Of a stretch of 64,000 bases of DNA, positions 34,496 through 39,996 are shown one piece after another. Position 1 is the stretch's first letter, and the number at the start of each line of letters is the position of its first letter. The stretch lies in NCBI GenBank assembly GCA_005791165.1, contig SXXW01000025.1:124001-188000 (forward strand), read 5' to 3'. The notes below the pieces were generated by a model, which worked only from the letters and a program-made list of their open reading frames with translations, was not told where the DNA came from and searched no databases. The DNA comes from Cytophagaceae bacterium (GTDB taxonomy: Bacteria > Bacteroidota > Bacteroidia > Cytophagales > Spirosomataceae). Made by a program: the position numbers and the translations under genes.

Positions 34496-35521
34496 ATGCG
34501 CGAAGATTATTTAACAGGTGAATCAGAATCATTAAATCCTCAAGAAAAGGAATTTGATAAGGCCTTACGTCCTTTAAGCTTCCTAGATTTTTCTGGTCAA
34601 GGAAAAATTATTGACAATTTAAAGATCTTTGTAGGTGCTGCAAAAGGCCGCGAAGAGGCTTTAGATCATGTTTTATTGCATGGGCCTCCAGGTTTAGGTA
34701 AAACTACCTTGTCGCATATTATTGCGAATGAATTAGGTTCAACTTTGCGAATTTCTTCGGGTCCTGTGTTGGATAAGCCATCAGATTTGGCGGGCTTATT
34801 GACTAATTTGCAACCCTTTGACGTCTTGTTTATTGACGAAATACATCGGCTAAATCCCATCGTTGAAGAATACTTATATTCTGCAATGGAAGATTATAAA
34901 ATTGATATAATGTTGGACTCAGGTCCAAACGCCCGAAGCATTCAAATAGGGTTAAATCCATTTACCTTGATTGGGGCGACCACTCGGGCAGGTTTATTGA
35001 CCTCCCCATTGCGGGCTCGTTTTGGCATTAATGCCCGACTAGAATATTATGACGCCGCGTTATTGACGAAAATTGTCAAACGTTCTGCCTCCATTTTAAA
35101 AATGCCGATTGATGAATCTGGTGCTTTTGAAATTGCTCGAAGGAGTCGGGGCACGCCTCGTATAGCCAATAATTTATTACGTCGTACTAGAGACTTTGCC
35201 CAAGTGAAGGGTTCGGGGATTATTGACGTAGAGATTGCTCAAATAGCACTGGATGCCTTGGATGTAGATCAAAATGGCTTGGATGAAATGGATAATCGGA
35301 TCTTAATGACGATTATTGAAAAATTCAAAGGTGGCCCTGTGGGTTTAACAACCATTGCCACTGCTTGTGGCGAAGAAGCGGAGACGATCGAGGAAGTCTA
35401 TGAGCCATTTTTAATTCAAGAAGGTTTCTTGAAAAGGACTTCTCGGGGAAGAGAAGCCACTGAAAAAGCGTATAGGCATGTTGGCATAGAACCTAAAGCA
35501 CAAACTGGTTCTTTATTTTAA
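34496..35521 (+). CDS. ruvB: Holliday junction DNA helicase RuvB
   Basis: AAA+ motor of the RuvAB branch-migration complex in recombination. The 341 residues contain [12 protein letters not shown] at the start, Walker [10 protein letters not shown] (about residues 63-71), Walker [10 protein letters not shown], sensor 1 [14 protein letters not shown], and the C-terminal winged helix with [18 protein letters not shown]. Complete and typical. Its stop shares TTAA with the stop of the convergent CBM9-like gene. Confidence 0.98.
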
Positions 35522-36216
35522 TTAAATTTCAAATAGCCAAATTTTTCAAATTCATGGAAGGTCCCTTTAACTGGCATCCATGCTGATTTAGCCATTTTTT
35601 CGTGGTCGTAATCTAAGCGATAAAAATTAGCACGCCAATAGGTATTTTGTTGTGGGGGTGTGTTCTCCAAGGGGTTAAATAAAGTATAGGGGAAAAACAT
35701 TTCAGCTGACCATTTTTTCATTTTGCCTTTTTCATTTGTGATGGAAACCGCTTTTTCGACTTTTTTCTCACCATCATAATGCCAAGGAATCCAACCAAAA
35801 AACTTTTTGTTGAAATTAGGTACAAGTAAAACAAGCTCCTTGTTTAACGCATTAATCTCATATTCAAAGTATAAGGGTTCTTTGGGATTTGGGTGGAAAA
35901 ACACCTCAAAAACATCGCCCTTATATAAATCATCAAAGTCCTTTTTGTAATTAGTGGTAATCTTATTGTCTTCGCCTTCCATGAGTACGTAGATTCCTTT
36001 TGCGGAATATAAAATTTTAAATTGGCTTGAATAGGGAGCGATTTCAGATGATAAATTTTGCAATGGGACCCAGGGAGTTTTTTTCCAGGCGGCATTTGAT
36101 CCCTTTCCGTTGACTTTAAAATCGCTCGTTTGTAAAACTTGAAGTGTATCTGACGCAGCAAATATGTTACCTATTACGCCCAAAATTAAAAAAATAAGTA
36201 GGACCGATTGTTTCAT
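35518..36216 (-). CDS. Exported CBM9/DOMON-like protein
   Basis: A 232-residue protein with a signal peptide ([17 protein letters not shown]) followed by a single carbohydrate-binding module family 9-like beta-sandwich: [15 protein letters not shown] at the start, [36 protein letters not shown] and the final WRANFYRLD. Ligand is unknown; such proteins in Bacteroidota are periplasmic or lipid-free and often accompany sugar-acting oxidoreductases. It is divergent from the large fused oxidoreductase gene, with 111 bases between them. Confidence 0.8.
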
Positions 36217-36327
36217 TTCTCATCAAATTGTTGGTTTGCAATTTGGAAAAAAAAATGGATTCAAAATCATTTTTAGAGGTTTGATTTTTGAAAAAAATCT
36301 TAGTTCTTTGGAAAAAATATAGAGTCT

Positions 36328-39300
36328 GTGCTAAAAAATAAATTTGATGCAATTGTCATTGGCTCAGGGATTTCTGGCGGTTGGGCCGCTAAGGAACTCT
36401 GTGAAGCGGGTCTGAAAACATTAGTGCTGGAGCGTGGGCGTGATGTGAAGCATGTGGAGGATTACCCAACAGCCATGAAGGATCCATGGGAATTTAAGCA
36501 CGGAAATAAGATTCCTAAGCGCGAAGCAAATCCCATCGTTAGTAAATGTTACGCCTACGATGCAGGGACAGAACATTTTTTTGTTAAAGACGAGAAGCAT
36601 CCTTATGTTCAGGAAAAGCCTTTTGATTGGATACGTGGATACCAAGTAGGAGGAAAGTCTTTGATTTGGGCTCGTCAAACGCAGCGTTGGAGTCAGTATG
36701 AATTTGACGCACCTAAGCGAGATGGATATGCCATCGAATGGCCCATTTCATATCAAGAACTCGCCCCTTTTTATACTCATGTCGAAAAGTTTGTGGGCAT
36801 TAGTGGAAATAAAGATGGGATTTCTAGCTTGCCCGACGGCCATTTTTTGAAACCTTGGGAACTAAATTGTGTCGAAAAACATGTTCAATCCCGTGTGAAA
36901 GAATTTTATAAAGGGAATCGCCATGTCATTATTGGCCGCTGCGCGCATTTAACCTCGCCCGAACCTCAGCACATTGAGCAGGGAAGGGGACAATGCCAAG
37001 CGCGAAATTTATGTTATCGGGGTTGTCCTTATGGAGCCTATTTTAGTTCTAATTCTTCCACGCTACCCTCGGCAGCTAAAACGGGTAACCTTACGTTAAA
37101 CCCCTTTTCTACCGTAGAATCCATCTTGTATGATGAGAAAAAACAAAAGGCGATAGGCGTCCGAGTGATCGACACGCAAACGAATGAAGTGAGCGAGTAT
37201 TTTGCCAAAATTATTTTTGTCAATGCTGCTACCTTAAATACGAATTTGATTTTAATGAATTCAAAATCCAATCGCTTTCCAAATGGTCTTGGAAATGATT
37301 CCGGGGTATTGGGTCATTACGTTGCCTTTCATAATTACCGTGGAAATGCGGGGGCTGATTTTGAGGGTTTTGAAGATTCGTACTATAAAGGCAGGAGGCC
37401 CACATCTGCATTTATGCCTACTTTCAGGAATTTACACCAACGAGACACTGATTTTTTGGGAGGGTATATGGTTGCATTTTCAGCAGCTAGAGGCGGATGG
37501 AATCGGGATCAATCTGGATTGAGTTTTGGGGAAGATTATAAAGAAAAAGTTACTAAGCCAGGACCTTGGCATATTTTTATGATGATGCAAGGGGAGACCG
37601 TACCGATATTTGAAAATCATGTCAAATTAGATCCTCTCAAAAAAGATGCTTGGGGCATTCCTCAATTAGTTACTTCCATTGGATATACGGAAAATGATGT
37701 TAAAATGTTTACAGATTTTCACCAACAAGCCAGAGAGATGTTAGAAATATCAGGTGGAAAAAATATTTCCACTTGGGATACGCATCAAAATCCGGGCTTA
37801 GATATTCATGAAATGGGCGGTGTTAGAATGGGCAAGGATCCCAAAACTTCCATGTTAAATAAATACAACCAAATGCACGCTTGTAAAAATGTTTTTGTGA
37901 CGGATGGTGCCTGTATGACGACAGTCGGCAATCAAAATCCTTCCCTAACTTTCATGGCCTTAACAGCTCGCGCAGTTAAACATGCCATTTCTGAAAGCAA
38001 AAAAGGCCTCCTTGGCTTGCTATTGTTTCTTACTTCTTTTTCTTCTCTTTTTGCCCAGTCGGCCCCCATCATGGACTATGATGTTATTATTTATGGGGGT
38101 ACATCAGCTGGAGTCATTGCGGGTTATTCCGCTAAAAAGTTAGGGAAGAGTGCGTTAATTATTGAACCATCCAATCACCTAGGAGGCCTAACTTCTGGTG
38201 GCTTAGGCTTTACGGATATTGGTAATAAATTTGCCGTGACGGGTTTGGCTAGAGACTATTACCGTCGAATAGGGAAACGATATGGGGCTTTTGAAAAATG
38301 GACCTTTGAACCTAGTGTGGCTCGGTCTGTTTTTGAAGATTATGTCAAAGCGGTTAAATTAAATGTTTGGTATCAATCTGTGTTGAAAAAAGTGGTGAAA
38401 AAAGGGACAGTCATTCACACTTTGGAAATTCAGACTCCTTCTGGCATCAAAATAGTTCGAGGAAAACAATTCATTGATTGCACGTATGAAGGGGATTTGA
38501 TGGCGATGGCTGGCGTTAGTTATACTGTTGGCCGCGAATCTAACCAAACTTACGGAGAGACTTGGAATGGGGTTCAGCTGTTAGATAAACACCAATTTCC
38601 TGATTTTGTGGATCCATATCGATTGAAGGGAAATCCATCGAGTGGTTTGCTTTGGGGAATTAGCCCTCAGTCATTAGCGGCTAAAGGTTCAGGTGATTCC
38701 CATACACAGGCCTATAATTTCCGAATTTGTTTGACCGATAGTGTCGAAAATCAAATTCCCATTACTAGACCTTTAGGGTATGATTCAACTCAGTTTGAGT
38801 TATTATTAAGGTATATCGAAGTGAAGAAGCCGCATGAATTAAATTGGTTATTAATGCATTTGCAGCCGATGCCTCACCGCAAAACGGATATTAATAATTC
38901 AGGGCCATTTTCTACCGATATGATTGGTGAGAGTGATGATTTTGCTGAGGCTTCTCCAGAAAAACGGAAGCAGATTTTTTTGAAACATCAATTGTATAAT
39001 CAATCGTTTTTGTATTTTTTAGGGCATGATCCAAGGGTTCCTATTCATTTAAGAAGGGAGATGTTGACCTATGGCTACCCCAAAGACGAATACATAAATA
39101 ATGGAAATTGGTCACCGCAAATGTATGTCCGCGAAGCCAGACGAATGATTGGCGAAGAAGTCATGACTCAGGCACATTGTGAGGGAAGAACTATTGCCAT
39201 GAATCCGATTGGTATGGCAGCTTATACGATGGATTCACATAATTGCCAACGCCTTGTTGTCAAAATTAATGGGGTAGATATGGTCAAAAATGAGGGAGAT

Positions 39301-39996
39301 GTTCAGTCAGGTGGATTTGGTCCTTATCCGATCGGATATGGCGCTTTAGTTCCTAAACGTGCTGAATGCACCAATTTGATTGTCCCCGTTTGTTTATCCG
39401 CCAGTCACATTGCATATGGTTCCATTCGGATGGAGCCTGTATTTATGGTTTTAGGCCAAACCGCCGCTGTTGCAGCTGTTCAAGCCATTAAAAATGCCGG
39501 GGCTGTTCAAGAAGTTAAGGTCAGCGATATCCAACAAATTTTAAATCAAAATCCTTTGTTGGACGGAAGCAAACCTGAAATTTTAGTAGATGATGCACAA
39601 TTGGCCCAAGTAACTAAAAGTGGAAATTGGACCAAAGAAATTAATAAAAAAGGATGTTATGGATCTTCCTTGTTATTAACAAATCCGACAAATAATGAGG
39701 ATTCGAAAGTCGTTTTTAAATCTCCTGGACCCTTGGATGGAAAGTATACCCTGTATTTTTACTTGCCAAACTTAGAGAATAATAGCACTATTTTTAACTG
39801 GGACATCAAGCAAGGTTCAAAAAAATTGACGGTCCAAATTAAATTGGACGGATCTAAAAGTACTCTAAAAGGGGAATGGATTTCTCTAGGCGATTTTGAC
39901 TTTAAAACTAAAAATAAGGCGGAGGCCATTTTATATTCAAAAGGAGCAAATGGATTAGTTCCTGCCGATGCGATTTTGTGGGTGCCTGTTAAATAA
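36328..39996 (+). CDS. Fused GMC oxidoreductase and FAD-dependent oxidoreductase with internal signal peptide
   Basis: A single open frame of 1222 codons from GTG 36328. Residues 1-557 form a complete GMC oxidoreductase: FAD motif VIGSGISGGWAA, GGKSLIWA, Cys-rich CQARNLCYRGCPYG, and active-site His494 (HEMGG) with Asn537 (NQNPSLT). Residues 558-578 are a textbook signal peptide, KK then GLLGLLLFLTSFSSLFAQS. Residues 582-1085 form a second FAD enzyme (YDVIIYGGTSAGVIAG, LGGLTSGGLGFTD) of the FAD_oxidored type, and about 1085-1222 form a golvesin-like beta domain. The GMC part has no signal peptide (a TAG lies in frame at 36301), so the halves would end on opposite sides of the membrane, or signal peptidase would separate them. 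Alternatives are stop-codon loss between neighbours, or an indel in the A6 run at 37999-38004. Acting on sugars or polyols is inferred. Confidence 0.8.
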   Translation: MLKNKFDAIVIGSGISGGWAAKELCEAGLKTLVLERGRDVKHVEDYPTAMKDPWEFKHGNKIPKREANPIVSKCYAYDAGTEHFFVKDEKHPYVQEKPFDWIRGYQVGGKSLIWARQTQRWSQYEFDAPKRDGYAIEWPISYQELAPFYTHVEKFVGISGNKDGISSLPDGHFLKPWELNCVEKHVQSRVKEFYKGNRHVIIGRCAHLTSPEPQHIEQGRGQCQARNLCYRGCPYGAYFSSNSSTLPSAAKTGNLTLNPFSTVESILYDEKKQKAIGVRVIDTQTNEVSEYFAKIIFVNAATLNTNLILMNSKSNRFPNGLGNDSGVLGHYVAFHNYRGNAGADFEGFEDSYYKGRRPTSAFMPTFRNLHQRDTDFLGGYMVAFSAARGGWNRDQSGLSFGEDYKEKVTKPGPWHIFMMMQGETVPIFENHVKLDPLKKDAWGIPQLVTSIGYTENDVKMFTDFHQQAREMLEISGGKNISTWDTHQNPGLDIHEMGGVRMGKDPKTSMLNKYNQMHACKNVFVTDGACMTTVGNQNPSLTFMALTARAVKHAISESKKGLLGLLLFLTSFSSLFAQSAPIMDYDVIIYGGTSAGVIAGYSAKKLGKSALIIEPSNHLGGLTSGGLGFTDIGNKFAVTGLARDYYRRIGKRYGAFEKWTFEPSVARSVFEDYVKAVKLNVWYQSVLKKVVKKGTVIHTLEIQTPSGIKIVRGKQFIDCTYEGDLMAMAGVSYTVGRESNQTYGETWNGVQLLDKHQFPDFVDPYRLKGNPSSGLLWGISPQSLAAKGSGDSHTQAYNFRICLTDSVENQIPITRPLGYDSTQFELLLRYIEVKKPHELNWLLMHLQPMPHRKTDINNSGPFSTDMIGESDDFAEASPEKRKQIFLKHQLYNQSFLYFLGHDPRVPIHLRREMLTYGYPKDEYINNGNWSPQMYVREARRMIGEEVMTQAHCEGRTIAMNPIGMAAYTMDSHNCQRLVVKINGVDMVKNEGDVQSGGFGPYPIGYGALVPKRAECTNLIVPVCLSASHIAYGSIRMEPVFMVLGQTAAVAAVQAIKNAGAVQEVKVSDIQQILNQNPLLDGSKPEILVDDAQLAQVTKSGNWTKEINKKGCYGSSLLLTNPTNNEDSKVVFKSPGPLDGKYTLYFYLPNLENNSTIFNWDIKQGSKKLTVQIKLDGSKSTLKGEWISLGDFDFKTKNKAEAILYSKGANGLVPADAILWVPVK

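Follow-up and report, generated by a model that had tools for sequence, protein, structure and literature searches.

One gene can yield two proteins when signal peptidase cuts at an internal signal, as is the case for FbcH, the cytochrome b/c1 precursor of Bradyrhizobium. Processing of the fused gene described here is predicted to follow the same route. However, the products of FbcH are subunits of one complex, and its first half is polytopic, whereas the fusion would give two flavoenzymes of soluble type, one expected on each side of the membrane. A second parallel is the anti-sigma factor RsiP, which is inserted N-in: one helix links its large N-domain in the cytoplasm to an outside domain, and signal peptidase cuts just outside the helix according to excerpts of the report (PMC8844934); the same layout is predicted for the fusion. 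In these excerpts cleavage of RsiP is the regulated destruction of a regulator, while cleavage of the fusion would yield two enzymes. By analogy, signal-peptidase cleavage at such joints can be said to have precedent. A literature search on internal signals and polyproteins returned no matching bacterial case, which leaves the absence of one unproven.

Three further groups of proteins are close to parts of the fusion. In Bacteroidetes, glutamine directly after the cut is a rule for signal peptidase I substrates, with a mean of 71% across species (excerpts of PMC5837995; the rule also stands in excerpts of PMC10653852). The fusion has this Gln right after its predicted cut, but its signal begins at residue 558, whereas theirs are N-terminal. 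The GMC half has the fold family and C-x5-C-x3-C spacing of the direct-electron-transfer FAD glucose/fructose dehydrogenases, whose catalytic subunits are exported by a Tat hitchhiker subunit in the excerpted text of PMC6719666; none lies beside the fusion. Finally, the stand-alone secreted FAD_oxidored-golvesin enzymes of Bacteroidota are 52-60% identical to the second half among the matches listed and have an equal domain order. Unlike the second half of the fusion, each of them is encoded by a gene of its own and carries its signal at the N-terminus.

We analyzed a 64,000-nucleotide stretch of a Cytophagaceae bacterium genome (the window). We consider it probable, judging from sequence comparison, that one gene in it encodes a two-enzyme precursor cut at an internal signal into a membrane-tethered GMC enzyme and an exported FAD enzyme.

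The fused frame and its presence in the genus

The gene is a single open frame of 1222 codons followed by a stop (Table 1). Pfam found GMC_oxred_N at residues 95-312 (41.1 bits, cut-off 23) and GMC_oxred_C at 429-545 (65.3 bits, cut-off 24.6) in the first half, then FAD_oxidored (PF12831; 351.1 bits, E 1.4e-104) and, C-terminal to it, Golvesin_C (PF25275; 55.1 bits). These domains agree with the earlier note on this DNA, which had described a GMC enzyme whole to residue 557 followed by a FAD_oxidored enzyme with a golvesin-like tail. The in-frame TAG that it placed upstream of the frame lies at 36301-36303. An ATG nine bases upstream of the GTG (window 36319-36321) is present in seven of the nine relatives with a 5' end; the window and G032 have ATA at this spot, leaving GTG as the start. 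The GTG itself was found in 10/10 genomes compared.

Table 1. Features of the fused gene and its neighbor, in window coordinates
Feature	Coordinates	Strand	Evidence or remark
Divergent neighbor, secreted CBM9-like protein	35518..36216	-	Beside the fusion in most, not all, relatives
Whole fused gene	36328..39996	+	GTG start, TAA; frame shared by ten other genomes
GMC dehydrogenase half, residues 1-557, without export signal	36328..37998	+	Pfam; nearest solved relatives
Cys223-x5-Cys229-x3-Cys233, predicted 3Fe-4S ligands	36994..37026	+	Invariant in 19 aligned rows; Burkholderia cepacia spacing
GMC end and internal signal-peptide-like segment, residues 552-576	37981..38055	+	Aligned to N-terminal signals in stand-alone relatives
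Predicted signal peptidase I site, Ala576/Gln577	38053..38058	+	A and Q invariant in 11/11; Q-rule (excerpts of PMC5837995)
FAD_oxidored domain, residues 585-1072	38080..39543	+	Pfam; model mean pLDDT 85.7
Golvesin-type C-terminal domain, residues 1085-1216	39580..39975	+	Pfam; match to the end of a solved xanthan lyase

The window's own genome consists of 42 contigs and is 83.9% complete. We compared 38 genomes of the genus. A second half with 85-100% identity occurs in 11 of them, counting the window's own genome, and each of these has both halves in one unbroken frame. The alignment of the joint (residues 541-600) is gap-free in 11/11. The other ten come from separate public MAG records that bear eight different sample prefixes, and their sample codes suggest a freshwater origin. 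In three of them (G014, G026 and G009) the fused gene is cut elsewhere by contig ends, with the joint intact. A base error or missed stop at the joint was rejected, the joint being stop-free and gap-free in the ten further genomes; the single uninterrupted chain claimed in the earlier note therefore holds, with no indel or missed stop near 37990-38010. A check for relatives with two separate genes found none inside the genus (11/11 judged genomes fused) and separate genes outside it.

One more genome, G004, has pieces that contig ends cut short of the joint, and it was left out of both the fusion verdict and the selection counts. Its GMC piece, 95% identical, runs to the edge of one contig; the FAD piece, 180 residues at 72% identity, is on another (L047, L186). 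Either a replaced second half or a binning error would account for this mismatch of the halves.

The segment between the two enzymes

The residues between the GMC and FAD_oxidored halves read ISESKKGLLGLLLFLTSFSSLFAQSAP. Within them lies a signal-peptide-like helix, KKGLLGLLLFLTSFSSLFA, followed across the predicted cut by QS. An n-region with KK at 558-559 precedes a hydrophobic stretch at 560-576, and Ala576 and Gln577 are unvarying in 11/11 orthologues. All three features of a processed precursor, namely a basic start, a hydrophobic core and a conserved cleavage site, are thus present, as the earlier note had proposed in calling the segment a complete internal signal peptide. It had put the cut after the FAQ; the Q-rule places it one residue earlier, between Ala576 and Gln577. 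At position -3, where AXA has a small residue, the orthologues carry Leu, replaced by Ile or Met in two of them. In the window, a crude count among 48 ORFs found 18 with a hydrophobic stretch at the N-terminus, 6 of them with a Q-rule site. Since membrane proteins and lipoproteins are among the 18 and one of the six sites is doubtful, the count lends weak support.

The helix is of moderate hydropathy (1.94). A buried segment of the FAD domain at 1038 is nearly as hydrophobic (1.81), so hydropathy alone is no proof of a membrane segment. In the predicted model of the second half and joint (mean pLDDT 85.7), residues 545-574 form one helix of low confidence. The model of the GMC half with the helix is poor (mean pLDDT 57.1), with a low-confidence helix at 538-575 across the joint. 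Moderate hydropathy and the similar scores of other helices of the chain would suit a bifunctional cytoplasmic enzyme, in which the helix packs between the domains and has no role in export. Against this stand the replacements within 560-576 across the 11 orthologues: each of the 12 types seen is hydrophobic or small, a property shared by 75 of the 109 replacements that single base changes could produce. The invariant Ala-Gln and the N-terminal signals of the second-half relatives also speak against it. We regard such a cytoplasmic enzyme as quite improbable.

A different possibility is that translation also starts inside the gene, at Met543 or another in-frame codon, so that a FAD enzyme with an ordinary N-terminal signal is made beside the long chain. 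Met543 lies before a usable signal (MALTARAVKHAISESKKGLL...), and synonymous divergence dips just upstream: the 25-codon window from 515 has 0.276, in the lowest 0.9% of windows, and the six segments tested have 0.41-0.53 synonymous differences per site (11 sequences). However, the dip does not go beyond permutation (permuted minima have a median of 0.29), and the gene's lowest window is at 384. Met543 is kept in stand-alone GMCs too, and the GTG at 550 is not kept, the window having GTT. For overlapping coding or a start signal at the joint itself we found no synonymous dip there, only the non-significant one at 505-534. No match to a Bacteroidetes-type promoter was found inside the GMC half, but as there is none before the fused gene either, this result is uninformative. 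Overall, an internal start seems improbable to us. Across the whole window, the pattern TTTG-N16-24-TAnnTTTG occurred 15 times against 6.7 expected from shuffles (0/100 reached 15), with none before the fused gene; this excess is consistent with Bacteroidetes-type promoters.

The sides of the membrane

Among solved structures, the GMC half comes closest to two catalytic subunits, those of fructose dehydrogenase (5.9e-30) and FAD glucose dehydrogenase (3.5e-22). H494 and N537, near the GMC C-end, are invariant in 19 aligned GMC rows, and we take them to be the expected catalytic His/Asn pair. C223, C229 and C233 are unvarying in the same 19 rows. In Burkholderia cepacia glucose dehydrogenase the 3Fe-4S ligands are Cys212, 218 and 222 (excerpts of PMC6719666); because the C-x5-C-x3-C spacing is the same, the GMC half probably binds a 3Fe-4S cluster as well as FAD.

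The first enzyme has no export signal, as the earlier note had stated. In the window's own genome, all four hitchhiker genes (PF13618) lie beside other GMC genes, while three other GMC genes, fusion included, have none beside them. A search for Tat hitchhiker genes found none next to the fusion, none within 1.5 kb of the 28 stand-alone orthologues from other genera and none in six wider stretches. Lacking both a signal and an adjoining hitchhiker, the GMC clade of the fusion can be expected to stay in the cytoplasm, in keeping with an internal signal inserted N-in, although a hitchhiker encoded elsewhere is possible.

The second half points outward. The only solved relative found by sequence matches the golvesin tail, aligning with the end of xanthan lyase, and a fold search returned generic FAD enzymes only (query-normalised TM-scores 0.17-0.30 among the best 50 listed). 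In all 12 golvesin-type relatives aligned, inspection by eye showed a hydrophobic segment at the N-terminus, and two are lipoprotein-like. From these signals, export appears to be the normal fate of the second-half enzyme. The fusion's internal segment aligns with the N-terminal signals of these stand-alone relatives, so that an export signal directly before the FAD_oxidored domain is present in the fusion too, though internal.

A gene in genome G016 bears on the fate of the signal. In a tree of 38 of 47 chosen loci (nine dropped by a motif filter; 9 of the 11 fused genomes included), the G016 GMC is sister of the fused clade with support 100/100. The gene has no FAD half: it closes with ISELKKLNLIWIGALLSLFS-stop, and the next gene lies 33 bases further on. 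Its last 11 residues have a mean of 2.01 on the Kyte-Doolittle scale, and among 254 open 11-codon stretches after stop codons in the loci compared none reached 2.0 (maximum 1.89). The letters of the tail are weakly similar to the fusion signal, and the stop falls near the predicted cut site. It is probably either a fusion remnant without the second half or a gene that gained its tail independently by stop loss. With either origin, its product, a GMC enzyme with a hydrophobic tail, looks like the predicted cleaved GMC product.

Concerning topology, cleavage, tether, cofactors and substrates, we infer the following course. Residues 1-557 would form a GMC-type dehydrogenase that folds in the cytoplasm and uses FAD, probably together with 3Fe-4S. 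The signal-like helix at 558-576 would enter the Sec translocon N-in, with its lysines inside, and the FAD_oxidored-golvesin part would be exported across the inner membrane. Signal peptidase I would cut before Gln577, which is expected to cyclise, so that the mature exported enzyme would begin pyroGlu-SAPIMDYDVIIYGG... and be released outside the inner membrane. The GMC enzyme would keep the spent signal, which would tether its C-terminus to the membrane. However, a signal that emerges only after 557 residues have folded may be exported poorly.

The earlier note had offered two readings, a two-sided chain or release by signal peptidase, and both are admissible. The uncut form would keep the helix as a permanent signal anchor, with the GMC enzyme on the inside and the FAD enzyme on the outside of one chain that perhaps passes electrons or couples the two activities. 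This arrangement shares the topology evidence given above, and large N-domains are nothing unusual in type II membrane proteins. However, a permanent anchor needs no invariant Ala-Gln at the cleavage position (11/11). Since Ala-Gln is invariant at the site and the sister gene in G016 stops near it, we favor release, and an uncut protein seems unlikely.

Origin of the fusion and its meaning

Outside the genus the two enzymes are separate. The 28 GMC orthologues from other genera (66-72% identity) all stop at most 12 residues past the common A(V/I)xE region, where the helix begins in the fusion, and most read KKxNL-stop. No FAD gene was found within 1.5 kb of any of them. In the family, 133/222 genomes have a second-half relative (E <= 1e-150); the 11 fused genomes are all in the window's genus, and the other matches listed have open frames of 532-747 residues. 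In a phylum sample, 16/395 genomes match the second half at 1e-80, with a frame above 1000 in the own genome only. An order sample of 341 genomes, scoring at most two candidates per genome, gave a whole-chain match in the own genome only among the matches listed; the other fused sister species were not among the sampled genomes listed. As the halves are fused in the genus and separate elsewhere, the fusion is a young, genus-level invention.

The surrounding genes also vary. In G005 and G017 the locus is empty of the fusion, for ruvB directly adjoins the gene found after the fusion in the window. In the window's clade the fusion sits between ruvB and this downstream gene, usually with the CBM9-like gene (absent in G032). 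The fusion of G025 (88% identity) is at a different location, beside a Gfo/Idh-type gene. Considering horizontal transfer as well, we find vertical descent possible, as 88% lies within the range of this genome's serS (93%) and response regulator (80%). Sulfatases lie beside the G016 gene. Both enzyme families, together with the CBM9-like, Gfo/Idh-type and sulfatase neighbors, suggest oxidation of sugars or sugar derivatives.

Two other arrangements were seen on the way. In G034 (contig C1, L190:3102-7955, +), a 1617-residue ORF has an N-terminal signal, BNR (sialidase-like) repeats, FAD_oxidored and further BNR-like sequence, which makes it another unusual FAD_oxidored fusion within the genus. 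At four loci (L023, L025, L028, L029), a paralogous GMC gene ends in a stop, and one or two codons later another long ORF begins in frame, an ordinary two-gene layout resembling a pre-fusion state.

GMC tails often read E-M-K-K and second-enzyme signals may begin M-K-K; a short deletion joining the two would yield the present in-frame joint. Selection is purifying along the whole fused gene, with dN/dS (11 sequences) of 0.037 for GMC, 0.004 for the GMC end (520-557), 0.16 for 558-579, 0.059 for FAD and 0.134 for golvesin. A neutral fusion, in which a deletion in a small genome joined two genes and both halves work as before, fits the spread limited to one genus and the tails and signals (EMKK-x-NL-stop; several signals beginning MKK) that a short deletion could join, and under it G016 could have lost the FAD half without harm. 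We nevertheless hold it to be highly improbable. It does not conflict with the mechanism of the cleaved precursor and denies only an advantage of the joint, and the low dN/dS means that both halves matter, saying nothing on the value of the joint.

For the cleaved precursor, a tentative further idea is that one signal first exports the second enzyme and then anchors the first, which would give equal amounts of inner-face and exported oxidoreductase, and that G016 is a descendant keeping the anchored half. When an export signal appears in the middle of a long enzyme, a base error or a wrong gene call is readily blamed; here, 11 genomes show the same arrangement. The case is a clean natural test of whether a Bacteroidota signal peptidase splits a precursor of two soluble-type enzymes, and also of whether a spent signal can act as a tail anchor.
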